Positions 43,049 through 58,742 of a DNA stretch of 64,000 nucleotides are shown here, piece after piece. Each line of letters starts with the position of its first letter. Positions within the stretch are counted from its first letter, which is position 1. The DNA is from Pseudovibrio brasiliensis (GTDB lineage: Bacteria; Pseudomonadota; Alphaproteobacteria; Rhizobiales; Stappiaceae): NCBI RefSeq assembly GCF_018282095.1, contig NZ_CP074126.1, positions 1,808,501 to 1,872,500 of the forward strand, read 5' to 3'. The position numbers and the translations under genes are program-made. The notes beneath the pieces were generated by a model. The model had not been told where the DNA came from. It worked only from the letters and a program-made list of their open reading frames with translations, and ran no database searches.

Positions 43049-43186
43049 AGTTTAGTCTCCAAATCCAAACGATAAAATTCGCAGAATTCTGCAAGCTTGG
43101 ATCGCTGCTGCTATGCATAAAGCATGTACAGAGGCGATCAAAGCAAACCTATCTGCACTCAAATACGCGTGAAGAATGCGTCAGAT

Positions 43187-43202
43187 GGCTTGTCTGAAGC
43201 TG
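43187..43202 (-). promoter_or_regulatory. Putative flagellar box facing flgF
   Basis: On the minus strand this reads CAGCTTCAGACAAGCC, matching 13 of 14 bases of the copy facing motA. The two copies form an inverted pair, each oriented toward its own operon. Confidence 0.6.
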
Positions 43203-43236
43203 TATGATGGTTTGCTCTGGTTTGTTTTTCTGCACG

Positions 43237-43257
43237 CCAGCTTCGGACAAGTAAGCC
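43237..43257 (+). promoter_or_regulatory. Putative flagellar box facing motA
   Basis: CAGCTTCGGACAAGTAAGCC, about 55 bp before the motA start and oriented like the copies before flgB, the flagellins and fliF. A further partial match, CTTGTCCGG, follows at 43283. See the finding on the shared box. Confidence 0.6.
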
Positions 43258-43310
43258 TCGCTACCACAAACTAAGAAAAGTGCTTGTCCGGTAAGTGTGT
43301 GGAGCGCAAA

Positions 43311-44195
43311 TTGAATATTCTAGTTGGCCTCGTGATCGTTATTGGATCAATAATTGGTGGTTATGTTGCTATGGGTGGCTATATGAAGGTGCTTTGGCAA
43401 CCTTTTGAGCTGCTGATTGTTGGTGGAGCTGCCTTTGGTACCTTTGTGGTGGCTAATACCTTTAAGACGATTAAGGATACCGGTCGCGGTATTCATGAGG
43501 CTTTGCTGAATGCGAAGCCTAAAAAGCGTGATCATCTAGATACGCTGAGTGTGCTTTACGGGCTTATGCGAACCCTTCGTGCAAAGGGTCGTAATGATGT
43601 CGAGCAAATTATTGATAATCCAGCAGAATCTGAGCTCTTTCAGCGTTTTCCGCGGGTTCTTGCTAACGTCTCTCTGACAAGTTTTATCTGCGATTATTTC
43701 CGTCTCATTATCATTGGTAACGTGCGTCCGCATGAGATCGAGGCTCTGATGGATGAGGAGTTGCATACTCTTGGTCGTGAAGAGATGAAGCCTTACCAGG
43801 CTCTCAGTATTGTTGCTGAAACACTTCCCGCTCTTGGTATTGTTGCGGCAGTGCTTGGTATTGTGAAGGCGATGGGGGCGATTGATCAGGAGCCGGAGAT
43901 TCTTGGTAGTCTGATTGGTGCCGCTCTGGTTGGTACCTTCCTAGGTATCTTTCTTTCCTACGGCATCGTTAGTCCAGTCGCGGTGAAGATCAAGTCAATC
44001 CGTGAGCAGCGCTATCGTCTGTACATTGAAGTGAAGCAGACGCTTCTTGCGTTCATGAACGGTGCTGCGCCTCAGATCGCGCTTGAGCACGGTCGTAAGA
44101 CAATCGGCGCTGATGATCGTCCGACAATTGATGAAGTTGAAGCCGAAACTATGAATGCTGGTCCTGTGACGTCCGCAGCTGGGAGTGAAGGTTGA
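43311..44195 (+). CDS. motA: Flagellar motor stator protein MotA
   Basis: Inner-membrane proton channel subunit of the stator that turns the flagellum with MotB. About 294 aa with four membrane segments ([20 protein letters not shown] at the start, [18 protein letters not shown], and [20 protein letters not shown]). The charged cytoplasmic loop has [21 protein letters not shown] is taken as start because GGAG lies 6 nt before it and it gives the standard NILVGL beginning; a TTG 27 nt upstream lacks a ribosome site. It heads a long rightward operon, and its stop overlaps the fliM start (TGATG). Confidence 0.93.
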
Positions 44196-45160
44196 TGGAG
44201 CCGCAAGATCTGGAAGTAGGTGATGAGGTTATTAGTCCTCAAAACGCCAAAGTTGATTTGCCTTCTCGCCTGCTGGATGCGGCGGGCTTGGGTGTCGATC
44301 GTCTTCCAATGCTTCATGTGGTCTTCGACCGTATGGCGCGACAGTACATCGATACACTTCGCCAAATGGCGGCAACCGCTCCTTATCTGGCAGTTCAGTC
44401 TGTTTCGAATGAGCGTATTGGTGATGCGCTTGAGCAGTACGAAGATCGGGCGGTTGTTGCCGTTCTTCATGCTCAGGAGTGGGATGCACGCATTCTGCTT
44501 GGTTTTGATCGCACCTTTATCTTCTCCATGGTTGAAGTTCTACTTGGTGGTGATGGTGAGGAAGAGGCGTTCCTCGAAGATCGCTCTCTGACCAATGTGG
44601 AGCAGCGTCTCGCCTATCGCATGTTCGAAGAGGCCGCGACTGCACTCGAAACAGCTTTCGAGGCAATTGCGGATACGTCTTTGAAAGTCGAGCGTCTCGA
44701 AAACCGTATGGAATTTGCGCAGACTGGTCGTAAGAGCAATCCTTGCGTACTGGCGAAAATGACGGCAGAGATTATTGGTCGCGAAGGTGAAATCTTTATC
44801 ATTATTCCACAGTCAGTCCTTAATCCGCTTCGTGAAAATCTGACGCAGGTTCTTTCAGGTGAAGTTGCGGGTCGTGATACACGTTGGACCAAGCAATTCC
44901 AACAGGAAGTACAGCGGACTGAAGTCAAGCTTACTGCGATCCTTGAAGAGCAGCGTATGACGCTGGAAGAGGTTGCGCAGTTCGAGGTCGGACTTGTTCT
45001 TGAGCTTAATGCTACGCCGAAAACTGCCGTTCAGCTCGAATGTAATAGCCAGCCATTGTTTAACTGCCGCCTTGGGCAGGTTGCAGGATCTTACACTGTG
45101 CGCGTTGAAGAGTTGATCGAGCAGGAAGGGGAACTTCTCGATGATATCTTATCTAATTGA
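44195..45160 (+). CDS. fliM: Flagellar motor switch protein FliM
   Basis: C-ring component that binds FliG and FliN and senses phosphorylated CheY. About 321 aa. N-terminal region DLEVGDEVISPQ replaces the standard CheY-binding EIDALL-type motif. The middle domain carries LLLGGDGEEE-like stretch (VEVLLGGDGEEEAFLEDR near residue 125) and ends in the SpoA-like C-terminal domain (about 245-320, TLEEVAQFEVGLVLEL, VGxxxG replaced by GQVAGSYTVRV). ATG overlapping the motA stop is chosen; GGAG and AAGG lie before it. The next gene begins inside its 3' end. Confidence 0.92.
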   Translation: MEPQDLEVGDEVISPQNAKVDLPSRLLDAAGLGVDRLPMLHVVFDRMARQYIDTLRQMAATAPYLAVQSVSNERIGDALEQYEDRAVVAVLHAQEWDARILLGFDRTFIFSMVEVLLGGDGEEEAFLEDRSLTNVEQRLAYRMFEEAATALETAFEAIADTSLKVERLENRMEFAQTGRKSNPCVLAKMTAEIIGREGEIFIIIPQSVLNPLRENLTQVLSGEVAGRDTRWTKQFQQEVQRTEVKLTAILEEQRMTLEEVAQFEVGLVLELNATPKTAVQLECNSQPLFNCRLGQVAGSYTVRVEELIEQEGELLDDILSN

Positions 45161-45791
45161 TGGATTTTTACTTTTTGCTCTTTTGATCACCACTTGGCGC
45201 GTCGTTGTGATGTACCGTCAGCTTAAAAGGCTTTCGAGTTATCACGAAGAGTATCAGCGGATTTTTGATCAGACCTCAGAGGCGATGGATAACATCGGCC
45301 TGTCTTTGCAGGAAATCCGCGTTCGTGGCGAAGAGATTCTGAGTAATCTCGGTCAGCGTATCGATGAGGCACGTGAGGCGACCGTTGACATCTCTGGTGT
45401 GATCCTTCAGGCGCAGACTGAAATGAAGGCTCTTCAGGAGCACATTGAGTGGCTGAGTAAGAAGAGTGATGAAGTCGGTATCAGTATGGATGATGCGCCC
45501 CCACGACCAGGTGGAGACAGGGGGCGTAGGTCTGGTCGCTCTGCAAAGCCCGCTGCCACGCGCGCTAAGCAGAAGCCGGTTTCAAGCGCTTCCTCAAATG
45601 CAGCAGCTCTGCTTCTTGCTGGTGGGTTAGGTAAGCCTGCAGCAGAAGAGAAAGCTGAAAACACTGCAGTGTCTGCAATTGATAATCAAAACGTCAGAGT
45701 AAGAAAAGTTTCTTTCGGCCAGAGCGCCACATTCCGATCTGTAAATGTAAAGGACGACGAAAGTCCTGAGAAGGAGAATGATCCGCAATGA
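45141..45791 (+). CDS. Single-pass membrane protein of flagellar operon (DUF6468-like)
   Basis: 216 aa. One membrane helix (LIDGFLLFALLITTWRVVVMY, about residues 5-25) is followed by a long cytoplasmic coiled coil (about 28-115, with QIFDQTSEAMDNIGLSLQ and ILQAQTEMKALQEHIEWL). A basic, Pro/Ala/Ser-rich disordered tail ends the protein. This matches the DUF6468 pattern found between fliM and fliN in alphaproteobacteria (family name from memory, moderately sure). The start lies inside fliM, with AAGGGG before it, and the gene overlaps fliN by 4 bp, so translation is coupled. The role is unknown; a link between C-ring and membrane is one idea. Confidence 0.8.
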   Translation: MISYLIDGFLLFALLITTWRVVVMYRQLKRLSSYHEEYQRIFDQTSEAMDNIGLSLQEIRVRGEEILSNLGQRIDEAREATVDISGVILQAQTEMKALQEHIEWLSKKSDEVGISMDDAPPRPGGDRGRRSGRSAKPAATRAKQKPVSSASSNAAALLLAGGLGKPAAEEKAENTAVSAIDNQNVRVRKVSFGQSATFRSVNVKDDESPEKENDPQ

Positions 45792-46204
45792 GCAGCTCAA
45801 ATGAAATGAGTGATGAAGCCCTCGCACTGCAGTGGGAAGCAGCTGCTTCTGAGGCCGAGATGGACATGGATATGGCAGCTCCTGCTGCATCAGCCCAGCC
45901 TGCGGCATCTGCACCAGAGAAGGGCGTCAGCGATGAAAACGTTGACCGTAACCTGGATGCAGTTCTCGGTATTCCTGTCGATATGCAGGTGGTCCTTGGC
46001 TCTGCGACCATGCCAGTTGCAAGTTTGCTTAAATTGGGTCGTGGTGCGGTGATTCCGCTTGATCACCGTGTTGGTGAGCCGGTCGATATCGTCGTGAATG
46101 GTCGTACCGTGGCGCGTGGCGAGATTGTGGTTGTTGAAGATGATAACTCCCGATTTGGTGTGTCGCTGACCGAGATCGTAGGTGCAAAAGGCAACTACGC
46201 CTAA
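45788..46204 (+). CDS. fliN: Flagellar motor switch protein FliN
   Basis: C-ring subunit that also helps the export apparatus. 138 aa. An acidic, Ala/Pro-rich N-terminal tail (about residues 1-50) precedes the compact SpoA domain. That domain contains LDAVLGIPVDMQVVLGSATMP, LLKLGRGAVIPLDHRVGEPVDI and VNGRTVARGEIVVVEDDNSRFGVSLTEI, a near-perfect FliN signature. It overlaps the upstream gene by 4 bp (ATGA) and is followed 50 bp later by fliG. Confidence 0.95.
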   Translation: MSSSNEMSDEALALQWEAAASEAEMDMDMAAPAASAQPAASAPEKGVSDENVDRNLDAVLGIPVDMQVVLGSATMPVASLLKLGRGAVIPLDHRVGEPVDIVVNGRTVARGEIVVVEDDNSRFGVSLTEIVGAKGNYA

Positions 46205-46254
46205 TCTCACCTGAGCTGTGCTTGATTTATATGTGTATCCGAGGCGCGTAGAGA

Positions 46255-47286
46255 ATGAACAGTGTTGTTCCAGCTGAAATGGGAAGCGTCATTTCCAAGA
46301 AGAATGGTCATCAAAAAGCAGCAGCTTTGCTGTTGGCTATGGGAAGTGACAAGGCAACTCGTGTTCTGAAGCATTTCGATAATGATGAAATGCGGATGAT
46401 CATCCGGGCTGCAGCTGATCTGGGCACAGTTCCTGCCAGTGAACTCGATGAGTTGATTGAAGAATTCATCGAGTTGTTCTCAGGCGGGGTCAACCTGTTC
46501 GGCACAGCAGAAGGTGCGGAAAGTCTCCTCAAAGGCATTCTGCCAGAAGACCAGGTTGCAGAAATTATGTCGGACGTTATGGGTTATTCCAAACGTTCGA
46601 TTTGGGACAAGGTCTCGCAAATCTCGGAGCACGTTCTTTCTACTTACTTGCAGAAAGAGCACCCGCAAACGGCGGCGGTTATTCTTTCCAAAATTTCTGC
46701 CAGCGGCGCAGCTCGTGTGATTTCCCAGATCCCACGTAGAAAGCGTAATCAGATCGTCCGTCGTATGTTGACGCTGAAGCCTATCGTGGAAGATGTCATG
46801 GAGGAGGTGCAGAAGACGCTGCACGAAGACTTCATGGTCAACTTCGCGAGAACTGTGGGTACAGATGCTCACGTACGTATGGCTGACATCCTCAACAAGA
46901 TGGAACGTGACGATCTTGAAGATACATTGGGCAATCTGCGAGAGGCTCTGCCAAAATCTGCAGAGCAGCTTGATGCATTGCTCTTCACCTTCGATGATAT
47001 CCAAAATCTGGATCTGCGTACCAGAACTGCCATCTTCGATGATGTTACCAGTGAAGTTATCACGGCAGCTCTTAAAGGCACCAACCCAGAGTTCCGTCAG
47101 GCTATCCTTGCAAGTATGGCTTCGCGAGCACGCCGTATCGTTGAGAACGATCTGGCTTCCGGCGAGCCTATGACTCAGCGCGAAGTTATGGATGCGCGTA
47201 GAGCGATCACTGACCTTGCACTGGAAAAAGCCAACGCAGGTGAGATCGATCTTGAGATCGGGCGTGGAGAAGAAGTCTACGTCTAA
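46255..47286 (+). CDS. fliG: Flagellar motor switch protein FliG
   Basis: C-ring protein that contacts FliF at its N-terminus and the MotA stator at its C-terminus. 343 aa, the usual length. All three armadillo-like domains are visible: KAAALLLAMGSDKATRVLKHF (about 20-40), the EHPQTAAVILSKI segment with the EHPQ motif (near 135), and the C-terminal charged helix in LDLRTRTAIFDDVTSEVI with the torque residues. It is in the middle of the motA-flhB operon. No oddities. Confidence 0.96.
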   Translation: MNSVVPAEMGSVISKKNGHQKAAALLLAMGSDKATRVLKHFDNDEMRMIIRAAADLGTVPASELDELIEEFIELFSGGVNLFGTAEGAESLLKGILPEDQVAEIMSDVMGYSKRSIWDKVSQISEHVLSTYLQKEHPQTAAVILSKISASGAARVISQIPRRKRNQIVRRMLTLKPIVEDVMEEVQKTLHEDFMVNFARTVGTDAHVRMADILNKMERDDLEDTLGNLREALPKSAEQLDALLFTFDDIQNLDLRTRTAIFDDVTSEVITAALKGTNPEFRQAILASMASRARRIVENDLASGEPMTQREVMDARRAITDLALEKANAGEIDLEIGRGEEVYV

Positions 47287-47341
47287 AGCTTCGGCATGAC
47301 TTTTTAAGTTTGTCAGACCACCTTGAGAAGCGGCAGGTTTC

Positions 47342-48403
47342 ATGTCTGAAGATCAGGATCCCGATAGCAAGACCCAGGAACCCACGGAGAAAAAGGTCCG
47401 TGATGCCTTGGAGAAGGGTAACATCCCGGTCTCCAAGGAAGCTTCTGTGCTTGCCTCAATGTTGGGTCTTCTATTGATCCTGTCCTTCATTGCTGTCGAT
47501 AAAGCACAGGGGTTGGTCCAGTTTCTGAAATGGTTTCTCGATAACCCGGGCGAGATCAGTTTTGTCAGCGCAGCGGAGCCGCTTCAGTTGATGTCTGCAG
47601 TGGCGTTCGAGTTGGTCTGGTTTCTTGGTCCAATTGTAGCCCTTCTGATTTTCTTTGGCTTGGCTTCATCTTTTATGCAGAATACGCCGCGACTTGTGCT
47701 TGATCGTATTGAGCCGAAGCTCAGCAAGATCTCTTTGAAGAAGGGATTTGGCAGGCTCTTCAGTGTCAATGGTGCTATGGAGTTCGTGAAGTCTCTCTTT
47801 AAGCTGGTGACAGTCATTGTTGTTGCTGCGTTGGTTTTGAAATCGCAGCAAGCAGTCGCGTTAACATCCATGTACAGCGATCCAACTCAGCTGCCGCAGC
47901 TTATTTTGTCTGTGGCGATGACGTTGCTCTCCGGTATCTGTGTAGCCACCATTTTCCTGGTTGGCTTCGATTTGGTTCTCGCACGTTTCCAGTGGCGTAA
48001 GAACCTGCGTATGTCGCATCAGGAGCTCAAGGATGAGTTTAAGCAGGCAGAAGGTGATCCGCTGATCAAGGCTCGCTTGCGTTCTCTTGCACGTGACAGA
48101 GCGCGTAAGCGTATGATGTCATCCGTACAGGATGCGACAGTCGTTGTTGCAAACCCGACCCACTTCGCCGTTGCGCTGTATTACGAGCGTGATGGTGACC
48201 AGGCTCCGCGGGTCGTTGCAAAAGGGCAGGATATTATCGCCCTGAAAATCAAGGAGCTTGCCTATATTCATGATGTTCCGGTTGTTGAGGATCGACAATT
48301 GGCGCGTTCACTGTATGCCGCCGTAGAGATAGACCAGAGTATTCCAGAAGAATATTATCGCGCGGTAGCAGAAATTATTTCATATGTTTATTTAAAGCGC
48401 TAA
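47342..48403 (+). CDS. flhB: Flagellar export switch protein FlhB
   Basis: Inner-membrane export gate component that switches substrate class after hook completion by self-cleavage. 353 aa. N-terminal cytoplasmic EPTEKKVRDALEKGNIPVSKE, four membrane segments (about 35-205), then the C-terminal cytoplasmic domain with the autocleavage motif NPTH at 271-274 (VVVANPTHFAVALYYE). Follows fliG by 55 bp. It is separated from the next small gene by 40 bp. Confidence 0.96.
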   Translation: MSEDQDPDSKTQEPTEKKVRDALEKGNIPVSKEASVLASMLGLLLILSFIAVDKAQGLVQFLKWFLDNPGEISFVSAAEPLQLMSAVAFELVWFLGPIVALLIFFGLASSFMQNTPRLVLDRIEPKLSKISLKKGFGRLFSVNGAMEFVKSLFKLVTVIVVAALVLKSQQAVALTSMYSDPTQLPQLILSVAMTLLSGICVATIFLVGFDLVLARFQWRKNLRMSHQELKDEFKQAEGDPLIKARLRSLARDRARKRMMSSVQDATVVVANPTHFAVALYYERDGDQAPRVVAKGQDIIALKIKELAYIHDVPVVEDRQLARSLYAAVEIDQSIPEEYYRAVAEIISYVYLKR

Positions 48404-48443
48404 ACACTTAGGTGAAGCGCATTTTCGCCTTGCGAGGGTAATT

Positions 48444-48893
48444 TTGTCGATTAAGACCACTTTGAAGAATAATGACTTGCCAGCAAAGTCTGAAGATGTC
48501 CTGCGGGAAGCTTTGATTGCAAATGCGATGAAGCCGATCGCCGCCGAGCTGCGGCTTTGTGATTTGTCGTCGCTTGCTCGTCATATCCTTTCTAATGAAT
48601 CTGCAAATCTCACTGATTTGCTGGAGTCCTCAACGGAGCTTTATTTCAAGCCAGAAACACTGATGTATGCGGGGACGTCCTCCATTGACTTGAACTGGAA
48701 CGGGGACGTGACGGTTTGCCTGCACATGAAGTTCACCAATGATGGCGTGAGCGTCATGTTCCACCTGTTCTTGCTGGCATTGAACTCAGCTGTCGATGTG
48801 AAATTTATCGCCTTTGATCAGCCTTCCGATGATCCGCAGGAGAACACAAAACGGCTGGAAGCTGCGCTTTCAGATGCGCGCCTAAACTCCTAA
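48444..48893 (+). CDS. Uncharacterised protein at end of the motA-flhB operon
   Basis: 149 aa, no family recognised. The N-terminal third is helical and charged (LREALIANAMKPIAAELRLCDLSSLARHI). The C-terminal half looks like a small alpha/beta domain (LYFKPETLMYAGTSSIDLNW, VTVCLHMKFTNDGVSVMFHLF, VKFIAFDQPSDDPQ). No signal peptide or membrane segment is evident, so it is cytoplasmic. It starts with TTG preceded by GAGGG at 5 nt. It is the last gene before a strong AT-rich hairpin, so it belongs to the motA unit. A structural or regulatory flagellar role is plausible from place only. Confidence 0.7.
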   Translation: MSIKTTLKNNDLPAKSEDVLREALIANAMKPIAAELRLCDLSSLARHILSNESANLTDLLESSTELYFKPETLMYAGTSSIDLNWNGDVTVCLHMKFTNDGVSVMFHLFLLALNSAVDVKFIAFDQPSDDPQENTKRLEAALSDARLNS

Positions 48894-48932
48894 ATATAAT
48901 TTTTACGTTTTATTAAGTTAAAATTTTAAGAT

Positions 48933-48968
48933 AAAAAGATATACTTGACTAACTAAGTATATCTTTTT
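48933..48968. terminator. AT-rich bidirectional hairpin ending the motA-flhB unit
   Basis: AAAAAGATATACTT and AAGTATATCTTTTT form a perfect 14-bp stem around an 8-nt loop, ending in TTTTT. Although low in GC, it is a plausible terminator separating two flagellar operons. Confidence 0.75.
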
Positions 48969-48994
48969 CGCTTTTCACGGAAATATTGATTCCA

Positions 48995-49015
48995 CCAGCT
49001 ACGGACAAGATTGCG
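48995..49015 (+). promoter_or_regulatory. Putative flagellar box upstream of flgB
   Basis: CAGCTACGGACAAGATTGCG, nearly the same as the copy before motA (CAGCTTCGGACAAG in 13 of 14). It ends 42 bp before the flgB start and directly follows the preceding operon's terminator. Confidence 0.6.
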
Positions 49016-49057
49016 CTGCTATCCACTTTGAGCAGTTTTTGTAGTGGAGTGGAATTT

Positions 49058-49438
49058 TTGGAGCCCGTATATCTTTTTAGTTTGGTTTCGCGGCAAAATT
49101 CTTGGCTGTCAGTTCGTCAGTCAACAATTTCCGAAAATATCGCGAACGTTGATACTCCTGGTTTTGCGAGTAGGGATGTCGAGCCTTTTAAGGATGTCCT
49201 GGATAAAACCAGTATGCAGATGGCTGCAACGCAAGCCGGTCACATTAGCGAAGATGGAACGAACTCTCGTCGTGTTCGCGTGAATGATGGTGAAGCGTGG
49301 CAGGTCACCGTTTCCGATAACTCCGTTTCCCTTGAACAAGAGCTGATTAAATCAGGTGAGGTCGCTAGGCAGCACTCGCTTAACACCCAATTGGTTGGGT
49401 CCTTCTACGGTTTGATGAAGTCCAGCTTAGGGAGATAA
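49058..49438 (+). CDS. flgB: Flagellar basal-body rod protein FlgB
   Basis: Most proximal rod protein. About 126 aa from the chosen TTG, which gives the normal alphaproteobacterial beginning ([20 protein letters not shown]) and has GGAG about 9 nt upstream. The frame is open 24 codons further up, but that stretch covers the regulatory box and looks non-coding. The rod signature is [23 protein letters not shown]. The C-terminus [19 protein letters not shown] forms the pairing helix. It is followed by flgC 5 bp later. Confidence 0.9.
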
Positions 49439-49443
49439 GTTTT

Positions 49444-49863
49444 ATGATTGATCCACTTGTAGCTTCTCTGAAAATTTCCTCTTCTGGTTTGAGGGTGCAA
49501 TCGCAGCGCATGCGCATTGTTTCTGAAAACTTGGCGAATGTTCAGTCGACTGGTGATACCCCTGGTGCCAACCCATACCAGCGCAAGACCATTACTTTTA
49601 AAAGTGAAGTAGATCGTGCGCTTGGAGCTAATCTTGTTGCTGTAAAAAATATCGGCTCAGACAAAGGTGATTACCGTGTTGAGTTTGATCCATCGCATCC
49701 AGCTGCTGATGAAAACGGCAACGTAAAATATCCAAACGTTAATACTCTGATTGAGCTTGCGGATATGCGTGAAGCCTCCCGTTCTTATGAGGCTGGTCTG
49801 CAGATGATGGTGAAATCCAGAGAAATGATTACCCGTACAATTGATTTGCTGAGGAGTAGGTAA
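49444..49863 (+). CDS. flgC: Flagellar basal-body rod protein FlgC
   Basis: Proximal rod protein, 139 aa. N-terminal [33 protein letters not shown], central [24 protein letters not shown], and the C-terminal pairing helix [22 protein letters not shown] are all standard. It has one-base overlap with fliE (TAATG). Confidence 0.95.
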
Positions 49864-50219
49864 TGGCGGATCTTTCGGCGTTGAGCACAGTATCTCGCGT
49901 ATCGACGTTTACCAGTGGTGTAAATGACGTTTCTTCTACTGCTCGCACCCGTCAGTACCTGGTTGGTGGTCCTCAGGACGCTCAGGCGACACAAGGTGTT
50001 CAGGGCAGCTTTGCCGACACAATGGCAGACGTGGTTCGTGAGACCGCAGGCGATCTGAAAACCGCTGAAGCAACATCTGTTGCTGCTGTGCGTGGCGAAG
50101 TATCCGCTCAAAAAGTGGTTGAGGCCGTAATGAAGGCAGAGCTTTCCTTGAAGAGCGCAGTTGCTGTGCGTGACAAGGTTGTTGAGGCCTATCAAGAATT
50201 CTCTCGTATGAGCATCTGA
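49863..50219 (+). CDS. fliE: Flagellar hook-basal body complex protein FliE
   Basis: Junction protein between the MS ring and the rod, 118 aa. The N-terminal 35 residues are not conserved. The core FADTMADVVRETAGDLKTAEATSVAAVRGEVSAQKVVEAVMKAELSLKSAVAVRDKVVEAYQEFSRMSI-type helix region (from about residue 45) is typical. Its start overlaps the flgC stop by one base. It sits between flgC and flgG, as in rhizobia. Confidence 0.93.
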   Translation: MADLSALSTVSRVSTFTSGVNDVSSTARTRQYLVGGPQDAQATQGVQGSFADTMADVVRETAGDLKTAEATSVAAVRGEVSAQKVVEAVMKAELSLKSAVAVRDKVVEAYQEFSRMSI

Positions 50220-50242
50220 TTGTTTGAGAAAAGGTTTTACTC

Positions 50243-51031: not shown

Positions 51032-51040
51032 GGCCTGAGC

Positions 51041-51523: not shown

Positions 51524-51527
51524 AATC

Positions 51528-52652
51528 GTGCGTTCTGTAAGCCGTTCTCTGGGGGCAATGTACCTTGCTTTTCTTGCATTGTTTTTGTCATTTGACAGCG
51601 CATCCGCGCTCGTTCGCATTAAGGATATAGCTGACCTGCGCGGCATGCGTTCAAACCAGCTTGTTGGCTACGGTATTGTGATTGGCCTGAATGGCTCTGG
51701 CGATACTATGCGTAACTCTCCTTTCACTGAACAGTCCCTGCAATCTATGTTGGAGCGTATGGGTGTGAATGTTCGTGAAGCGAACTTGAGTTCACGAAAT
51801 GTAGCCGCAGTTGTCGTAACTGCTGAGCTGCCACCATTCATCGGCAATGGTGCTCGTATTGACGTTTCTGTTGGCTCTTTGGGAGATGCAAAGTCGCTTC
51901 AGGGCGGCACATTGCTCGTGACGCCTTTGATGGGCGCTGATGGTAATGTGTATGCCGTGGCGCAAGGCTCTGTTTCAGTTTCTGGTTTCTCTGCAGAGGG
52001 TGATGCAGGTAGTTTGACGCAGGGCGTGCCAACTGCCGGTAATGTTCCAAACGGTGCTCTCATCGAGAAAACGCTGCCGGACTACTTCTCCTCTATGCCG
52101 CAGTTGGTTCTGGAACTTAAAAATCCAGATTTCAAGACCGCTGTACGTGTCACTGATGCAATCAATGCATTTTCTCTGAACCGCTATGGTCTGAAACTCG
52201 CCAGTGAGCTTGATTACAGATCTGTCCAGGTGCAGCGCCCGGCTGGCATTAGTTCAGTGCGATTTATATCTCAGATCGAAGGTCTGATGGTTCAGCCTGA
52301 TACGCCCGCTCGTGTTGTTGTCGATGAACGTACAGGTACCGTTGTTATCGGTCAGAATGTTCGGATTTCAACAGTAGCGGTTACGCACGGCAATCTGACA
52401 GTTCGTGTCTCTGAGCGTCCAGAAGTCTCTCAGCCTAATCCGTTTGCTCAGCAGGGTGAGACCACTGTTGTACCACGTACAGATATCGACATTCAGCAGG
52501 AAGATGGTCAGTTGCAGCTGATTGGTGGTACCGATTTGCAGACATTGGTGCGTGGTTTGAACCGCATCGGTCTGAAACCAAGCGGCATCATCGCAATCCT
52601 TCAGGCGATCAAGCAGGCAGGGGCCCTGCAGGCAACTCTCGTGGTCAAGTAA
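51528..52652 (+). CDS. flgI: Flagellar P-ring protein FlgI
   Basis: Forms the P-ring bushing around the rod in the peptidoglycan layer. About 374 aa from a GTG start with GGAG 9 nt before it. The open frame extends 19 codons upstream but overlaps flgA, and the GTG gives a clean signal peptide (MRSVSRSLGAMYLAFLALFL, cut near SASA). The mature protein starts LVRIKDIADLRGMRSNQLVG, then GYGIVIGLNGSGD. The C-terminal ATLVVK ending is standard. Confidence 0.95.
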   Translation: MRSVSRSLGAMYLAFLALFLSFDSASALVRIKDIADLRGMRSNQLVGYGIVIGLNGSGDTMRNSPFTEQSLQSMLERMGVNVREANLSSRNVAAVVVTAELPPFIGNGARIDVSVGSLGDAKSLQGGTLLVTPLMGADGNVYAVAQGSVSVSGFSAEGDAGSLTQGVPTAGNVPNGALIEKTLPDYFSSMPQLVLELKNPDFKTAVRVTDAINAFSLNRYGLKLASELDYRSVQVQRPAGISSVRFISQIEGLMVQPDTPARVVVDERTGTVVIGQNVRISTVAVTHGNLTVRVSERPEVSQPNPFAQQGETTVVPRTDIDIQQEDGQLQLIGGTDLQTLVRGLNRIGLKPSGIIAILQAIKQAGALQATLVVK

Positions 52653-52730
52653 GACCGCACGGCAGTTGGATAAGCCACGGGCAAGCTTGTGGCTTCAATG
52701 TACCGCTAAACCTATTGGAACTGAGTTGTA

Positions 52731-53282
52731 ATGCCTCTCTTAAAGCTCTCTAAGAAGACGTTCTTTCCCCTTAAGTGTGCAGTGGTGTCTCTTGGTTTGT
52801 GCATGTCGCTTGCCTCTGCAAGCGCGCAAACAGCTGAAACTGAAGCAGAAGATCTGAGTGCTGCGATTGAGCAAGCAAAGAACTACTGTGAAGCAATTGC
52901 TGATCAGGCAAAGGATGCTCGGATTGCATGGCAGATGCGGGCGCTCTTTGATGTTGAACATCAGATGAAAGCCAAAATCACTGAGCTCGATGCCAAAATC
53001 GCCGAGCTCCGCAGCTGGGTGCAGCGCCGCGATGAAATCCTGCAAAGAGCTGAAGGGCATGTTGTCGATATTTATGCAAACATGCGCCCAGATGCAGCTG
53101 CTTTACAGCTGACGTCTCTGGATGATGAGACTGCTGTTTCTATTCTTCTCCAGATGAAAGCGCGAAAAGCAAGTTCAGTGCTCGCTGAACTCTCTTCTGA
53201 GCGTGCAGCTTACCTGACTGACATGATGGCAGAACTTACAGCTCGTAAAGCCAGCAAACTGAATATGGGAGTTTCACAGTGA
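52731..53282 (+). CDS. motE: Flagellar motor periplasmic chaperone MotE
   Basis: In Sinorhizobium MotE is a periplasmic chaperone that helps fold MotC. Here 183 aa with an N-terminal signal (LKCAVVSLGLCMSLASASAQ). A long coiled coil follows (about residues 40-105, with QMKAKITELDAKIAELRSWV), then a MgtE-N-like C-terminal domain (YANMRPDAAALQLTSLDDETAVSILLQM). It lies between flgI and flgH, as in rhizobia, and motC is present downstream in this window, which supports the function. It overlaps flgH by 4 bp. Confidence 0.87.
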   Translation: MPLLKLSKKTFFPLKCAVVSLGLCMSLASASAQTAETEAEDLSAAIEQAKNYCEAIADQAKDARIAWQMRALFDVEHQMKAKITELDAKIAELRSWVQRRDEILQRAEGHVVDIYANMRPDAAALQLTSLDDETAVSILLQMKARKASSVLAELSSERAAYLTDMMAELTARKASKLNMGVSQ

Positions 53283-53989
53283 AGCGCACCTTGGTATGCA
53301 TTCTCGCTGCAATTACGCTCACTGGCTGTAATGCCATGAAGAACGTTGGCAAAGAGCCGCATTTGACACCATTGGGGCAGGGGCTCCAGCCGAGTGTTGC
53401 GAGTCTTCCTGCGACACCGGCGAAAAATGGCGGGCGTTCCAATCGTGCTTATCACGGTCTTTGGGCTGACGGAGAACAAGATTTCTTCCGTGATCCGCGT
53501 GCGAAACAGGTTGGTGACGTGCTGACTGTCGCTATTAAGATCAAAGACAAGGCGAAGCTGGATAACTCAAGCGAGCGTAAACGAGATTCCTCTCGCTCTA
53601 CCGGCTTGAAAGGTGCATTTTCCTGGGCTGGTGTTGACTCTGGTGAAGCAGATGCCACCATTTCCGGAACTGGCGCCACCGCCAGTAAAGGTGAGGGTGC
53701 GATTGACCGTAGTGAAGAGATCGAACTATCAATCGCAGCGGTTGTGACCAATGTGCTTCGAAACGGAAACCTTATCATTTCTGGCCAGCAGGAAGTGCGG
53801 GTCAACTACGAAGTTCGCGTTCTCTCTGTTGCAGGCATTGTTCGTCCCGAAGATATTACAGGTCGCAATACCATTCAGTACGATAAGATCGCTGAGGCGC
53901 GTGTTTCTTATGGTGGCCGAGGCCGCATGACAGAAGTTCAGCAGCCGAGCGTTGGTCAACAAGTTATTGATATCATTAGCCCGTTCTAA
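53279..53989 (+). CDS. flgH: Flagellar L-ring lipoprotein FlgH
   Basis: Outer-membrane L-ring subunit. 236 aa with a lipoprotein signal: MKRTLVCILAAITLTGC, lipobox LTGC with Cys17 as the lipid site. The mature protein includes YHGLWADGEQDFFRDPRAKQ (the L-ring signature SLW-type segment), VGDVLTVAIKIKDKAKLDNS, and the C-terminal RPEDITGRNTIQYDKIAEARVSYGGRG. Starts with GTG overlapping the motE stop (GTGA). Confidence 0.95.
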   Translation: MKRTLVCILAAITLTGCNAMKNVGKEPHLTPLGQGLQPSVASLPATPAKNGGRSNRAYHGLWADGEQDFFRDPRAKQVGDVLTVAIKIKDKAKLDNSSERKRDSSRSTGLKGAFSWAGVDSGEADATISGTGATASKGEGAIDRSEEIELSIAAVVTNVLRNGNLIISGQQEVRVNYEVRVLSVAGIVRPEDITGRNTIQYDKIAEARVSYGGRGRMTEVQQPSVGQQVIDIISPF

Positions 53990-54000
53990 GGGAGGCTCCA

Positions 54001-54510
54001 ATGGCTATTAAAGCTCAATTGCCAAAGCCGCAGTTGCCAACCTCCGAGAATTCTTGGGTGAGTGTCGCGATAGCTGCAGCTGTTGTTACTGTTGTTGCAG
54101 GTGCTGGTGGTATGGGAATCGGTTCAACGCTGGTTGATCAGGTTCACAGTAAGTATCTGGAAGAGCAGAAAGCCAACAGTGGTGCGCTGATCAATCCGGA
54201 ATACACCGAAAGCAGTCAGATCGTTTCTCTGAAACCGATCGTGACCAACTTACTCTCTTCCTCCAAAAACTGGATCCGCATCGAAGCATCTGTTGTTCTT
54301 ATGCAGCGTGGTATCGAAGAGCAGGGCCATTCGCTTCTGGTGAAACAGGTAGAGCAGGATCTGCTTCTCTACGCGCGTACGCTTGGCCCTCGTCAGTTGG
54401 AAGGCACGCGCGGCTTGTTGCGTCTGAGAGACGATCTTAACGAACGCGCAAAGATGCGTGGTGGAAAATTTGTAAAAGAACTCGTGCTTGAATCCGTGGT
54501 GATTCAGTGA
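54001..54510 (+). CDS. fliL: Flagellar basal body-associated protein FliL
   Basis: Single-pass inner-membrane protein next to the stators that supports torque and surface sensing. 169 aa. The membrane helix VAIAAAVVTVVAGAGGMGIG lies at about residues 22-41. The periplasmic domain has LKPIVTNLLSSSKNWIRIEASVVL and ends LVLESVVIQ, the usual FliL C-terminus. It overlaps fliP at its stop. Confidence 0.92.
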   Translation: MAIKAQLPKPQLPTSENSWVSVAIAAAVVTVVAGAGGMGIGSTLVDQVHSKYLEEQKANSGALINPEYTESSQIVSLKPIVTNLLSSSKNWIRIEASVVLMQRGIEEQGHSLLVKQVEQDLLLYARTLGPRQLEGTRGLLRLRDDLNERAKMRGGKFVKELVLESVVIQ

Positions 54511-55265
54511 TGCGTTATCTTGCGTTTTTTACGGGTTTTCTGAGTTTATTTGCGTTGTTTTGGGTAGCTCCGGCCTCTGCGCAGGAAATCAACCTGAGCG
54601 ACCTGCTCCCAGCAGGGCAGGCATCCGCAAGCGGTCGCATTATCCAATACGTCATGATCCTGACGGTGCTGTCTTTGGCGCCGGGTATTCTGATCATGGT
54701 AACGAGTTTCACTCGCTTTGTGGTGGCGCTGTCTTTCTTGCGTTCCGGTATCGGTCTTCAAACAACACCTGCAAACATCATCCTCATCTCGCTGGCCTTG
54801 TTCATGACCTTCTATGTCATGGCACCGACGTTCGATGCTGCTTGGAAGAACGGTCTCCAGCCGCTCATCAAAGAAGAGATCTCCGAGGAAGTTGCATACG
54901 AGGAAATGACGAAGCCCTTTCGGCGCTTCATGTTGGATAACGTGCGCGAGAAAGATCTGGTTCTTTTCGATGATCTGGCTGTTAGTGCATTCAACTATGA
55001 AAAAGATGCGCCAGTTGAAGAGTTAGACCTGCGTGTCCTTATCCCGGCCTTCATGATCTCCGAACTCCGCCGCGGTTTCGAAATAGGCTTCTTAATAGCC
55101 TTGCCCTTCGTCGTGATAGACATGATCGTAGCAACAATAACCATGTCCATGGGCATGATGATGCTCCCACCAACCGTGATCTCGCTCCCCTTCAAGGTGC
55201 TGTTCTTCGTCTTGATCGATGGATGGTACTTGCTAACAGGCGGGTTAATAAGATCGTTTACATAG
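54510..55265 (+). CDS. fliP: Flagellar export apparatus protein FliP
   Basis: Core of the export gate (FliP5 ring with FliQ and FliR). About 251 aa. A cleavable signal is at the start (LAFFTGFLSLFALFWVAPAS, then AQE). Conserved helices follow: LTVLSLAPGILIMVTSFTRF, LRSGIGLQTTPANIILISLA and ELRRGFEIGFLIALPFVVID, with MGMMMLPPTVISLPFKVLFFVLIDGWYLLTGGLI-like end. A GTG 3 nt upstream is an equal start candidate. Last gene of the flgB operon, before a terminator. Confidence 0.95.
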   Translation: MRYLAFFTGFLSLFALFWVAPASAQEINLSDLLPAGQASASGRIIQYVMILTVLSLAPGILIMVTSFTRFVVALSFLRSGIGLQTTPANIILISLALFMTFYVMAPTFDAAWKNGLQPLIKEEISEEVAYEEMTKPFRRFMLDNVREKDLVLFDDLAVSAFNYEKDAPVEELDLRVLIPAFMISELRRGFEIGFLIALPFVVIDMIVATITMSMGMMMLPPTVISLPFKVLFFVLIDGWYLLTGGLIRSFT

Positions 55266-55278
55266 TGTTAAGCATAAG

Positions 55279-55302
55279 AAGCCCCGCTGAGGGGCTTTTT
55301 TC
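55279..55302 (+). terminator. Terminator of the flgB-fliP operon
   Basis: AAGCCCC pairs with GGGGCTT (GCTGA-type loop) and runs into TTTTTTC, just before the flagellin promoter. Confidence 0.88.
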
Positions 55303-55319
55303 TTGCTTACGTAAAAGAG

Positions 55320-55339
55320 TCAGCTTCGCGTAAGTTACG
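55320..55339 (+). promoter_or_regulatory. Putative flagellar box upstream of flagellin 1
   Basis: TCAGCTTCGCGTAAGTTACG, start of a 110-bp leader that is duplicated before flagellin 2. It ends 116 bp before the ATG. The leader also holds the perfect inverted repeat CTTTGATAATTCAAAG (55367-55382). Confidence 0.6.
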
Positions 55340-55455
55340 TGAGTCATCGTTGGCTTCTGTTACAGGCTTTGATAATTCAAAGTGCATGATGCAATTCTGT
55401 AACCCCGGCAATTTGATCCGGAATGTCCCATTTCTTCTATTAAGGGACAATTATT

Positions 55456-56598
55456 ATGTCTTCTCTTTTGACTAACTCCTCCGCAATGGTCGCATTGACT
55501 ACCCTTCGTGGTATCAATGACAGCATGGCAACCACTCAGAACCGTATTTCTACTGGTATGCGTGTTGCTGATGCTTCTGACAACGCGGCTTACTGGTCTA
55601 TCGCAACAACCATGAAGTCTGATAACTCAGCTCTTTCTGCTGTTAAAGACTCCTTGGGTCTGGGTGCTGCTACCGTTGATGTGGCTTTCACCGCAATGGA
55701 TCAGTCCGTTGATATCGTTAGCCAGATTAAAGATAAGCTGACTGCTGCTACCAACGGTACTGTTGACCGCGGTAAGATCCAGGCTGATATCAAACAGCTT
55801 CAGGAACAGCTGGAAACCATTGCTTCTTCTGCTACATTCTCCGGTGAGAACTGGCTGCAGCAGAACATGGCAACCGACGCTCTTAACAAAGAGATTGCTG
55901 GTTCCTTTACACGTGATGCAGCTGGTAACACTCAGATTGAGTCTATCGTTGTTGATACTCGTACCACTGTTCTGGTTGATACGCGCGGCGTAACTGACAA
56001 TACTGGTATTCTTACCTCCAACCTTCGTGGTGATAACGCTGCTGGTGTGACATTTACCGCAGGTGATGACATCAGTACCCTTGTTCTGGCTTCTGGTGGT
56101 GAAGATGGTATCGCATACAAGGCGGCACTTGCAGCAATTCACAATACCTATAATGGTCTGAGTGACGCTGATAAGCTGTTGTTCGATGCAACTGCTGCTG
56201 AAGCTGTGAGAGATGCCGTCAATACTCGTCTTGATACATTAGTTCCTGCTGCTGGTGATCCGATTTCCTTCTTGGATCTTGATATCTCCTCCTTTGGCAA
56301 TAATGCAGTAGATAACGGTATCCTTGAATCTTACATCGACGTTGTTGATGGTCAGCTTTCTGCTATCACCGATGCGGCTACTGAACTTGGTTCTGCTAAG
56401 GCTCGTGTAGACATGCAGAAAGAGTTTGCAAGCAACCTGTCTGACGCAATCGATCGTGGTATCGGTCAGCTCGTTGATGCGGACATGAACGCTGAATCCA
56501 CTCGTCTGCAGGCGCTTCAGACTCAGCAGCAGCTTGGTATTCAGGCTCTGTCTATCGCAAACTCTGGTTCCCAGAACATCCTCAGCCTGTTCCGTTAA
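55456..56598 (+). CDS. Flagellin 1
   Basis: Filament subunit exported by the flagellar apparatus, 380 aa. The conserved D0/D1 N-terminus (SSLLTNSSAMVALTTLRGIN, DSMATTQNRISTGMRVADAS and on) and C-terminus (SAKARVDMQKEFASNLSDA and the final GSQNILSLFR) enclose a variable middle (about residues 180-290) that forms the exposed surface. The first 179 and last 88 residues are the same as in flagellin 2, with silent base differences. It has its own box, leader and terminator, so it is a single-gene unit. Rhizobia also carry several flagellins in tandem. Confidence 0.95.
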   Translation: MSSLLTNSSAMVALTTLRGINDSMATTQNRISTGMRVADASDNAAYWSIATTMKSDNSALSAVKDSLGLGAATVDVAFTAMDQSVDIVSQIKDKLTAATNGTVDRGKIQADIKQLQEQLETIASSATFSGENWLQQNMATDALNKEIAGSFTRDAAGNTQIESIVVDTRTTVLVDTRGVTDNTGILTSNLRGDNAAGVTFTAGDDISTLVLASGGEDGIAYKAALAAIHNTYNGLSDADKLLFDATAAEAVRDAVNTRLDTLVPAAGDPISFLDLDISSFGNNAVDNGILESYIDVVDGQLSAITDAATELGSAKARVDMQKEFASNLSDAIDRGIGQLVDADMNAESTRLQALQTQQQLGIQALSIANSGSQNILSLFR

Positions 56599-56631
56599 TT
56601 CGGAAAGCTCTGAGAACCTTAGAAGCTTTAA

Positions 56632-56659
56632 GGCCCCGGTTTGTCGCCGGGGCTTTTTT
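56632..56659 (+). terminator. Terminator of flagellin 1
   Basis: GCCCCGG pairs with CCGGGGC around a 7-nt loop and runs into six T. Confidence 0.88.
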
Positions 56660-56773
56660 ATATGTCTAGGCTAAATGTTCCGATTTATACTTACGGCTTA
56701 GCTTCGGTCTCTTAATGCCTTCTTTGATAATCGATATAATTCTGCGGTGATTTTATAAAATCTTACAGTTAAG

Positions 56774-56793
56774 TCAGCTTCGCGTAAGTTGCG
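56774..56793 (+). promoter_or_regulatory. Putative flagellar box upstream of flagellin 2
   Basis: TCAGCTTCGCGTAAGTTGCG, identical to the flagellin 1 copy except for one base, at the same distance (about 117 bp) from its ATG. The whole stretch to 56884 repeats 55320-55430 with only a few differences. Confidence 0.6.
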
Positions 56794-56910
56794 TGAGTCA
56801 TCGTTGGCATCTGTTACAGGCTTTGATAATTCAAAGTGCATGATGCAATTCTGTAACTCCGGCAATTTGATCCGGAATGTCCCAGTTTTTTCTTTTTAGG
56901 GGCAAGTATT

Positions 56911-58074
56911 ATGTCTTCACTTTTGACCAACTCCTCCGCAATGGTCGCATTGACTACCCTTCGTGGTATCAATGACAGCATGGCAACCACTCAGAACCGT
57001 ATTTCTACTGGCATGCGTGTTGCTGATGCTTCTGACAATGCGGCTTACTGGTCTATCGCAACAACCATGAAGTCTGATAACTCAGCTCTTTCTGCTGTTA
57101 AAGACTCCTTGGGTCTGGGTGCTGCTACCGTTGATGTGGCTTTCACCGCAATGGACCAATCCGTTGATATCGTTAGCCAGATTAAAGATAAGCTGACAGC
57201 AGCAACCAACGGTACTGTTGACCGCGGTAAGATCCAGGCTGATATCAAGCAGCTTCAGGAACAGCTGGAAACCATTGCTTCTTCTGCTACATTCTCTGGT
57301 GAGAACTGGCTGCAGCAGAACATGGCAACCGACGCTCTTAACAAAGAGATTGCTGGTTCCTTTACACGTGATGCGGCTGGTAACACTCAGATCGAGTCTA
57401 TCGTTGTTGATACGCGAACCACTGTTCTGGTAGATACCCGCGGTGTTGCTGGCAATACTGGTATTCTAACTTCGGATCTTAGTGGTGGTGATACTAATGA
57501 CCCAACAATTACCACTGGTGATATTGACACTCTCGCTGTTGCTCTTACGACGCCTGCAACCACTAGTGAGGGGATTATCCAGAAGGCAATTGTTGCTGCA
57601 GTAACTAACACATTTAATGGCCTTGAGGACGGGACTACAGCAGGTACCAAAGGTACGTTTGATGCGGCTGCAGCCAAGGTTGTAGCAGATGCGACTAAAG
57701 CAAGGATTGGTGTTCTAGCTGGCGCAGTTGGTGATCCGATGTCCTTCTTGGATCTTGACATCTCTACACTTGGAAATAATGCGATCGACAACGGTATCTT
57801 GGAAGCCTACATCGATGTTGTTGATGGTCAGCTTTCTGCAATCACCGATGCAGCTACAGAGCTTGGTTCTGCTAAGGCGCGCGTAGACATGCAGAAGGAA
57901 TTTGCAAGCAACCTGTCTGACGCGATTGATCGTGGTATCGGCCAGCTTGTTGATGCGGACATGAACGCTGAATCCACTCGTCTGCAGGCTCTTCAGACCC
58001 AGCAGCAGCTCGGTATTCAGGCTCTGTCTATCGCAAACTCTGGTTCCCAGAACATCCTCAGCCTGTTCCGTTAA
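56911..58074 (+). CDS. Flagellin 2
   Basis: Second filament subunit, 387 aa. Ends identical in protein to flagellin 1, while the middle (about residues 180-299) has changed strongly and differs in length, with Thr/Ala/Gly-rich stretches such as GGDTNDPTITTGD and TTPATTSEG. Diversification is thus confined to the exposed part. It has its own upstream box and terminator. It may be used in the same filament or at another stage of growth; sequence does not say. Confidence 0.95.
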   Translation: MSSLLTNSSAMVALTTLRGINDSMATTQNRISTGMRVADASDNAAYWSIATTMKSDNSALSAVKDSLGLGAATVDVAFTAMDQSVDIVSQIKDKLTAATNGTVDRGKIQADIKQLQEQLETIASSATFSGENWLQQNMATDALNKEIAGSFTRDAAGNTQIESIVVDTRTTVLVDTRGVAGNTGILTSDLSGGDTNDPTITTGDIDTLAVALTTPATTSEGIIQKAIVAAVTNTFNGLEDGTTAGTKGTFDAAAAKVVADATKARIGVLAGAVGDPMSFLDLDISTLGNNAIDNGILEAYIDVVDGQLSAITDAATELGSAKARVDMQKEFASNLSDAIDRGIGQLVDADMNAESTRLQALQTQQQLGIQALSIANSGSQNILSLFR

Positions 58075-58107
58075 ATCGGAAAGCTCTGAGACCCTTAGAA
58101 GCTTTGA

Positions 58108-58130
58108 GGCCCCGGTTAATCGCCGGGGCC
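58108..58130 (+). terminator. Terminator of flagellin 2
   Basis: A perfect 8-bp stem, GGCCCCGG with CCGGGGCC around TTAATCG, then TTTATTTATATTT. Confidence 0.85.
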
Positions 58131-58174
58131 TTTATTTATATTTATGATAAAAATTTAGATAAAATTATAATAAG

Positions 58175-58193
58175 TCAGGTTAGCGCAAGTTCG
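58175..58193 (+). promoter_or_regulatory. Putative flagellar box upstream of the 111-aa orf and fliF
   Basis: TCAGGTTAGCGCAAGTTCG, about 79 bp before the 111-aa orf. It matches the flagellin copy in 14 of its 19 bases. A TATACC stretch about 8 bp further on could serve as a -10 region. Confidence 0.5.
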
Positions 58194-58271
58194 ACAAAAT
58201 ATACCAGTATTTGAGATAAGCTTTCTTAAGCTTTATCTCGTGTTGGGTAGATTTGAGTTAAACGGTGCCAG

Positions 58272-58607
58272 ATGTTGAGTAATCAGTTGAATATCCCCGG
58301 AGTAGGGGAGCGGGAAATCGAGCATCTGGATCTCTCTGAGCTTGCATCAGAAAAGAAGCTCGAAGGTTTGACATTTGCTCTTCGTGGCAATGAGCGCTTC
58401 TGGAGTTCTGTTGTTGCTCTTGCGCGCGATGTTCTCTTTGAGCAAGAAGGGCAGTTGCGCCAGATTGACTGCGGCGCCAACACCATTGTTGCGATCAATG
58501 CAACTGCGGATCGTGTGAGTAGGCGTCTTAAACAGCAGAGTTGTGGTCTGTCGGTAAAAGGTCTGCCGAGCATCCAGCGCATTTCGAATGCTGGTGTTTA
58601 TCTCTAA
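58272..58607 (+). CDS. Uncharacterised protein before fliF
   Basis: 111 aa, no family recognised. Predicted soluble and cytoplasmic. The first 30 residues are polar and acidic (PGVGEREIEHLDLSELASEK), followed by an alpha/beta-like segment (GLTFALRGNERFWSSVVALARDVLFEQEGQL, IDCGANTIVAINATADRVSRRL). It lies between flagellin 2 and fliF, with its own upstream box and a poor ribosome site. It may be a small flagellar regulator or an export chaperone; neither is shown by sequence. Confidence 0.6.
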   Translation: MLSNQLNIPGVGEREIEHLDLSELASEKKLEGLTFALRGNERFWSSVVALARDVLFEQEGQLRQIDCGANTIVAINATADRVSRRLKQQSCGLSVKGLPSIQRISNAGVYL

Positions 58608-58681
58608 GCTGCTTTGATTTCTCAGTGAAAGCGCCTTAGGTCGCTGAGAAACCGTGGATTTTCAATCAATGTAAATCCTGA

Positions 58682-58700
58682 TCACGTTCGCGCAAGGTTG
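58682..58700 (+). promoter_or_regulatory. Possible second flagellar box directly before fliF
   Basis: TCACGTTCGCGCAAGGTTG is a weaker match (core TTCGCGCAAG). Its AAG lies 49 bp before the fliF start (58694 to 58743), close to the 51 bp in flgB (49007 to 49058). Counted as tentative. Confidence 0.4.
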
Positions 58701-58742
58701 AAAAGCGAAGGTAGCGCCATTGATACACCTGCAGAGGTCGCA

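Follow-up and report, generated by a model that had tools for sequence, protein, structure and literature searches.

The 64,000-nucleotide stretch of Pseudovibrio brasiliensis DNA analysed here (contig NZ_CP074126.1, positions 1,808,501 to 1,872,500; the window) holds most of a lateral-type flagellar gene cluster, which runs for about 12 kb past the window in a genome of 6.03 Mb. A reading of the sequence by eye, which we call the original prediction, had picked out a shared 20-bp box ahead of the flagellar operons and proposed that it binds the nearby FtcR/Rem-like regulator. In the Hyphomicrobiales (rhizobia, brucellae and related bacteria) FtcR, Rem and LafR act as master activators of flagellar genes. 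We find that the seven sites of that prediction are real and that the box is very probably where the activator acts in a two-part flagellar promoter of the FtcR/Rem/LafR type, working by the mechanism that follows.

Two molecules of an FtcR/Rem/LafR-type regulator would occupy an 11-bp direct repeat, AGYTTCGCRCA-AGNTTSR, in head-to-tail order, and this repeat would replace the -35 element. Once bound, the regulator would bring in RNA polymerase carrying the housekeeping sigma factor, the polymerase engaging a TAnnnT hexamer 6 bp further on. A single regulator would in this way activate the FtcR-type (lateral-type) regulon, with flgF, motA, flgB, motE, flgE, flhA, flgJ, fliF, an open reading frame (ORF) of 111 aa and a DUF1217 gene as members, and in Pseudovibrio the regulon would take in the flagellins as well. 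A wider proposal is on balance likely: that one bipartite code defines the lateral-type regulon across the order, with an old position at fliF, flgE, flhA, flgB and motA, that the Pseudovibrio flagellins gained it, merging classes II and III, and that it governs a DUF1217 gene on a different contig.

A box and a -10 hexamer at fixed spacing

Motif discovery by expectation maximisation was run on 126 upstream regions (140 before removal of near-duplicates) of eight flagellar genes, taken from 44 FtcR-homologue loci outside Pseudovibrio. It recovered the same box, gCCAgcTTCGCGCAAGcTTc, with 18.8 bits and a score of 724 (60 starts), against 74-86 in three shuffled sets of 25 starts each. When 162 non-redundant sites out of 233 were aligned on the box alone a second element appeared 6 bp beyond it: positions 26-31 hold a TAnnnT hexamer, with A27 in 90% of sites, the last T (T31) in 79% and the first T in 47%. 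The A27 and T31 pair is present in 81% of the sites from other genera (106) and 52% of those from Pseudovibrio (56), while at control offsets an A-T pair reaches at most 11% and 20% respectively; the sites had been picked on the box only. The hexamer has the form of a sigma-70-type -10 element, which completes the promoter and which the original prediction had overlooked. Since it sits 6 bp after the box, the box would occupy the -35 region. Conservation extends beyond the invariant core of the original prediction (CAG-N-T, then G and AAG) and takes in the -10 hexamer.

The box is weakly an 11-bp direct repeat: among lags 5-13 only lag 11 gave positive self-similarity, a value reached in 4 of 5000 column permutations. 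An inverted repeat was rejected, all 17 shifts being negative, as was our first guess of a 10-bp repeat, which scored below 11 bp. OmpR/PhoB-type activators use this layout, a direct repeat of 11 bp across the -35 region. The distance from the box to the start of the gene is also kept, being mostly 50-80 bp for fliF, flgE, flhA, flgB and motA, 88-98 bp for the 111-aa ORF and 125-168 bp for flagellins.

The fixed spacing between box and hexamer could be that of an alternative sigma promoter (RpoH-, RpoE- or FliA-like) needing no activator. We consider this very unlikely, as the box, at about 18 bp and repeat-like, exceeds a -35 hexamer, the -10 is of sigma-70 type, and at the ordinary sigma spacing of about 17 bp the box would be needed only in its first half. 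A profile search of the genome found no FliA above cut-off, which agrees with the original prediction that the box is not a sigma-28 promoter. The three matches that fell short of the cut-off are in open frames of 713, 314 and 311 aa and are presumably RpoD and two RpoH. Sigma-54 is encoded in the genome, and its promoters have a -24/-12 element of the GG...GC form; by comparison with that consensus, no dedicated scan being made, the de novo motif does not appear to be of this type.

Sites in the cluster and the background

The seven predicted sequences were all found in place, each oriented toward its operon, and those of flgF and motA are divergent and 31 bases apart. An eighth site, before motE, lies within the window and had been missed. 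The sites are as follows.

43185..43204 (minus): flgF box; -10 CATTCT at 43173-43178; present in 11/11 named Pseudovibrio loci spanning the region (L004-L014)
43236..43255 (plus): motA box, for motA-fliM-fliN-fliG-flhB; -10-like TACCAC at 43262-43267; in 11/11 Pseudovibrio motA upstream regions
48994..49013 (plus): flgB box, for flgB-flgC-fliE-flgG-flgA-flgI; -10-like TATCCA at 49020-49025; in 11/11 Pseudovibrio flgB upstream regions
52670..52689 (plus): motE box, 61 bp before the gene, for motE-like (183 aa)-flgH-fliL-fliP; -10 CAATGT at 52696-52701
55319..55338 (plus): first flagellin box; -10 CATCGT at 55345-55350
56773..56792 (plus): second flagellin box; -10 CATCGT at 56799-56804; a recent duplicate, not independent of the first
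58174..58193 (plus): box of the 111-aa ORF (58272-58607); -10-like TATACC at 58200-58205
58681..58700 (plus): fliF box; -10 GAAGGT at 58707-58712; ranked 2nd by the other-genus model described below

From gene order the flgF unit is probably flgF, a 228-aa ORF and fliI. The motA start is the TTG at 43311. For fliF and flgB the longest ORF reaches as far as its box or runs into it, and for that reason we revised the starts, which are probably the ATG at 58743 and the GTG at 49049. The product of the 111-aa ORF has no NCBIfam or Pfam match. The flagellin boxes are about 137 bp before the ATG (55319-55456 and 56773-56911), which gives leaders of about 100 nt; these leaders are possibly a target of post-transcriptional control by FlbT.

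The sites had been selected by eye, and there were grounds for suspecting chance resemblance. A loose 14-mer allowing up to 3 mismatches finds 19 matches where chance gives 14.1 on average, and a count of 19 or more is seen in 12 of 100 shuffles; a loose pattern run over the genome has 144 matches against 71 for the reversed control. Such patterns are at or near background and we have set them aside as evidence. Scans with matrices covered the window and 32.5 kb of flank, 96.5 kb in all, on both strands (192,938 positions). A six-site matrix, built from the predicted sites without the second flagellin, which was left out as a duplicate, puts all seven at the head of the whole 96.5 kb. When each of the six was left out in turn five ranked 5th to 9th, and flgF only 45th. 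Three of the next four sites by this matrix are 73-75 bp before flhA, flgJ and flgE, beyond the window. The other (L002:12153), ranked 10th, is at no known gene and was dropped, as was a weak site before flaF (L001:5685) that the independent other-genus model did not recover.

That model was trained on 106 sites, none from Pseudovibrio, although a few of the training loci are metagenome-assembled genomes titled only Alphaproteobacteria or Proteobacteria. Its top 11 of the 192,938 positions are the seven predicted sites plus motE, flgE, flhA and flgJ, the same 11 for the box alone and for the box with the -10, bearing in mind that training and test sets may share species, here and in the fliF and further-family comparisons below. 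The motE site ranks 4th with the box alone and 5th with the -10. After the 11th site the score drops from 12.4 to 10.3 bits with the -10; with the box alone there is no gap (12.0, then 11.9). Over 20 shuffles the top-scoring random match with the -10 had a mean of 14.2 and was once 23.6, the box alone giving 16.1 and 20.4. Shuffled sequence can thus yield single matches as strong as several of the sites, and it is therefore their joint placement, not any single score, that decides. With the box recovered de novo in other genera, placed correctly in a genus absent from training and followed by a fixed -10, we regard chance resemblance as effectively refuted.

The original prediction had allowed that equally good matches might prove to be scattered over the genome. 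The pattern CASSYWMRSRYAAG has 36 matches genome-wide against 19 for its reverse, and nine of the 36 are flagellar promoters. Loci were given to 30 of the 36, and among these 19 of the 21 non-flagellar matches are within mechanically called ORFs of at least 80 aa, L101 and L123 being the other two; of the six without loci, the only one looked at is before the DUF1217 gene. Off-cluster matches are thus mostly inside ORFs, for patterns rather than for the full matrix, and being inside an ORF is a soft criterion because the flgB site lies inside one too. A composite pattern of box and -10 has 11 matches against 21 for its reversed control, so that the count is uninformative; as to placement, six are in the cluster, one is before the DUF1217 gene, and four are elsewhere, all of these under ORFs of at least 80 aa. 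The L123 match (G000:C1:4160209) resembles the box and falls between ORFs; the gene 144 bp downstream of it looks by eye like one for a solute-binding protein.

Conservation across genomes

A gene was taken to carry the box if a match of at least 12 bits was found within 250 bp upstream. The site is conserved in related genomes, as the original prediction required. In Pseudovibrio, which contributed nothing to training but whose genomes are closely related to one another, the box precedes 87 of 95 target genes and 3 of 225 other flagellar genes. In the loci used for training (L015-L066) the figures are 102/147 and 7/329, and by gene fliF (33/33), flhA (23/25), flgE (23/30), flgB (6/6) and motA (7/7) are the strongest, with flgJ (3/5) and flgF (1/5) weaker. 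The fliF site, which had been called a weaker one, is in fact among the best conserved boxes. No box was found in Rhodobacterales and similar loci, either before targets (0/42) or before other flagellar genes (0/117).

Within Pseudovibrio the box is found before fliF in 15/15 cases, before flagellins in 16/17 and before the 111-aa ORF in 9/15 other loci (those where the ORF was assigned to the match). For flgF it is within 250 bp in 4/11, a DUF1217 gene intervening in several genomes. The motE box recurs in two other Pseudovibrio loci and two Bosea loci, 54-77 bp upstream, and is absent from six further scorable loci. One flagellin row (L196, misplaced) and three motE rows (L085 and L086, partial matches, and L047, too short) were dropped.

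A further family, in which 61 genomes were searched, two of them also in the 26-genome fliF set discussed below, gave a similar picture. Among the matches listed the box precedes 28 of 30 fliF genes, the other two scoring 9.2 bits, 27 of 28 scorable flgE genes and 4 of 13 flagellin genes (14 rows, of which one was misplaced).

The FtcR-like regulator

The putative reader of the box is encoded in the window.

39566..40243 (plus): ftcR-like gene, for an OmpR-type regulator with an apparently degenerate receiver; no box upstream

The protein shares all of 225 residues (100% identity) with one from Pseudovibrio denitrificans JCM 12308. Its output domain (PF00486) scores 58.9 bits against a cut-off of 26.2 and its receiver (PF00072) 25.5 bits, under the cut-off of 30.2. 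In residues 49-58 no column is Asp in all 13 aligned homologues, the register relative to regX3 being ambiguous. The distant FtcR-like proteins found in Rhodobacterales could not serve as a phospho-Asp reference, as by eye they look degenerate too. Rem is reported to be aspartate-less and active without phosphorylation (PMC9812332), and a receiver below cut-off, with no conserved Asp near residue 51 in the 13 homologues, fits that report. The original prediction had the box before every flagellar transcription unit, which is an overstatement given that ftcR itself lacks it. The same is true of relatives (0/52 and 0/11 ftcR upstream regions), which gives no sign that ftcR is autoregulated through the box.

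The box is associated with FtcR. At a threshold of 1e-30 FtcR is in 32 of 150 genomes of the order, and many of its homologues lie in flagellar clusters. Leaving our own genome aside, an FtcR-type fliF (at least 38% identity) was found in 26 genomes of the order, and every one of these also has FtcR; five genomes have FtcR without such a fliF. In the further family the counts are 49/49 (two already counted), with two FtcR genomes lacking fliF. For comparison of fliF upstream regions we took all 26 of the FtcR-type genes and 34 of the 62 listed places of low-identity fliF, 30 of the 34 from genomes without FtcR and four being second systems. The box is before fliF in 19 of the 26 and in 1 of the 34 (Fisher p = 5e-9), and there was no antisense match upstream of fliF in either group. 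Four genomes (G050, G134, G158 and G164) have both types of fliF and carry the box before the FtcR-type gene only. Three fliF upstream regions from genomes without FtcR at 1e-30, L173 (G125), L162 (G056) and L166 (G096), score 13.8, 10.9 and 10.9 bits, which could be either chance or a more distant regulator.

There is a second flagellar set in our genome (L098, G000:C1:3756000-3775900), with fliF at 32% and flhA at 46% identity, fliG, fliN and flgD, and the six-site matrix finds no box there at 12 bits or more. A second fliF like this one is present in 15 of 16 Pseudovibrio genomes. The restriction of the box to the FtcR-type system fits the reported control by LafR of lateral and not polar flagella (PMC8429497) and agrees with the distribution of two systems in PMC6406911. 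A third and shorter FliF-like match, in a frame of 267 aa (G000:C1:2943204-2943695), is also found in seven others of the 16 Pseudovibrio genomes and could be an injectisome ring protein.

The analysis shows the box, its fixed -10, its spacing to the genes, its conservation and its association with FtcR; from these we infer that FtcR is the protein that binds the box, that its role there is activation and that the -10 is read by sigma-70. Several observations weigh against this or against details of the promoter as described. FtcR lies inside the cluster and travels with it, so that co-occurrence cannot separate it from another cluster factor. The published motif for Brucella FtcR from chromatin immunoprecipitation sequencing (ChIP-seq), TGTGGGCA (118 of 363; PMC9456535), differs from the box and is absent from the 126 flagellar upstream regions, where 0.9 are expected; its one match in the 96.5 kb, at position 7501, is far from flagellar genes. 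The fliF upstream region scores below 12 bits in 7 of the 26 FtcR genomes (four at 9.5-11.5), and outside Pseudovibrio the box is present before only 6 of 36 flagellin genes (L015-L066) and 2 of 8 motE genes scored. In Pseudovibrio the last T of the -10 is missing at motA and flgB and the A at flgE. The direct repeat is imperfect: of 8 positions, 3.8 match at lag 11 and 3.2 at lag 10.

The linkage and the differing ChIP-seq motif would both be explained if another regulator of FtcR-type clusters, or a general alphaproteobacterial one such as VisNR, CtrA or MucR, read the box, with FtcR acting upstream of it. We think this unlikely. A direct repeat overlapping the -35 region is typical of OmpR-type activators, the CtrA site, TTAA-N7-TTAA, is unlike the motif found, and FtcR is the only such regulator identified in the cluster, though not all of its ORFs were searched. 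VisNR is reported to be missing from some rhizobia that have a Rem homologue (PMC8429497). Against the differing ChIP-seq motif can be set the direct binding of Brucella FtcR upstream of fliF reported by Leonard et al., as cited in section 2.4 of PMC9456535, fliF being the gene where the box is best conserved. The scarcity of flagellin boxes outside Pseudovibrio is in keeping with the report that one lateral flagellin gene of Bradyrhizobium is outside LafR control (PMC10888616). The proposal of an FtcR/Rem-like binding site in the original prediction is thus supported in part: the box follows FtcR, has the OmpR-type geometry of a weak repeat and appears to replace the -35 element, but the Brucella motif does not match it.

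A DUF1217 gene outside the cluster

Among the five off-cluster matches to box and -10 in our genome, one is under no ORF and is just before a gene on contig C2. The gene was an output of the scan and not an input to it.

G000:C2:146128-147222 (L259/L260): DUF1217 gene, for a 365-aa protein; box 67 bp upstream

Relatives of this gene are in 15 of 16 Pseudovibrio genomes, and all 16 copies have the box, 63-72 bp upstream. The six-site matrix, whose independence is incomplete because it includes the flgF site, scores them at 15.2-22.4 bits; the other-genus model gives 11.1-18.1 bits, with 13 of the 16 at 12 bits or more. The copies form two groups of eight, one 56-100% identical and far from fliF or on another contig, the other 34-42% identical and mostly within about 22 kb of fliF. 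Eleven named Pseudovibrio ftcR loci were searched, and in five of them a DUF1217 gene separates flgF from its box. The box therefore accompanies the DUF1217 gene both inside and outside the cluster.

Relation to known systems

If the box is the FtcR/Rem/LafR site, the sequence alone can reveal the regulon wherever members of the order keep the box, and the box can be used to find regulon genes that are outside the cluster, as for DUF1217, or of unknown function, as for the 111-aa ORF. The conflicting Brucella ChIP-seq motif would then be open to re-examination, and a regulator that reportedly acts in the absence of phosphorylation would acquire a defined promoter layout. The promoter would be an OmpR-type, -35-replacing activator promoter for a known regulator family. 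We found no earlier account of the box in the full-text literature searched, which did not take in the founding papers on these regulators, and the box may have been described before.

The CtrA promoters of Caulobacter and of Rhodobacter fla2 likewise have a response regulator at alphaproteobacterial flagellar promoters (PMC6180460). The motif there, the CtrA consensus, differs from the box we describe, and the Rhodobacterales and similar loci tested were without the box (0/42).

A parallel in layout is the pho box, an 11-bp head-to-tail repeat that replaces the -35 element upstream of a sigma-70 -10. The arrangement here is the same, with a different repeat sequence and regulon and a 6-bp gap to the -10, and in contrast to PhoB the receiver seems to be without the conserved phosphorylation site.

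Also among the closest known systems are those of Rem in Sinorhizobium meliloti, FtcR in Brucella and LafR in Bradyrhizobium, OmpR-like class IB activators of the same family and from the same cluster as the regulator discussed here. No cis element like the box was found for them in the papers searched. In these systems the regulator is described as necessary for class II genes, fliF and flgE among them (PMC8781033, PMC8429497). The Pseudovibrio flagellins also carry it, whereas the flagellins of S. meliloti are placed in class III (PMC8429497, PMC6180460).

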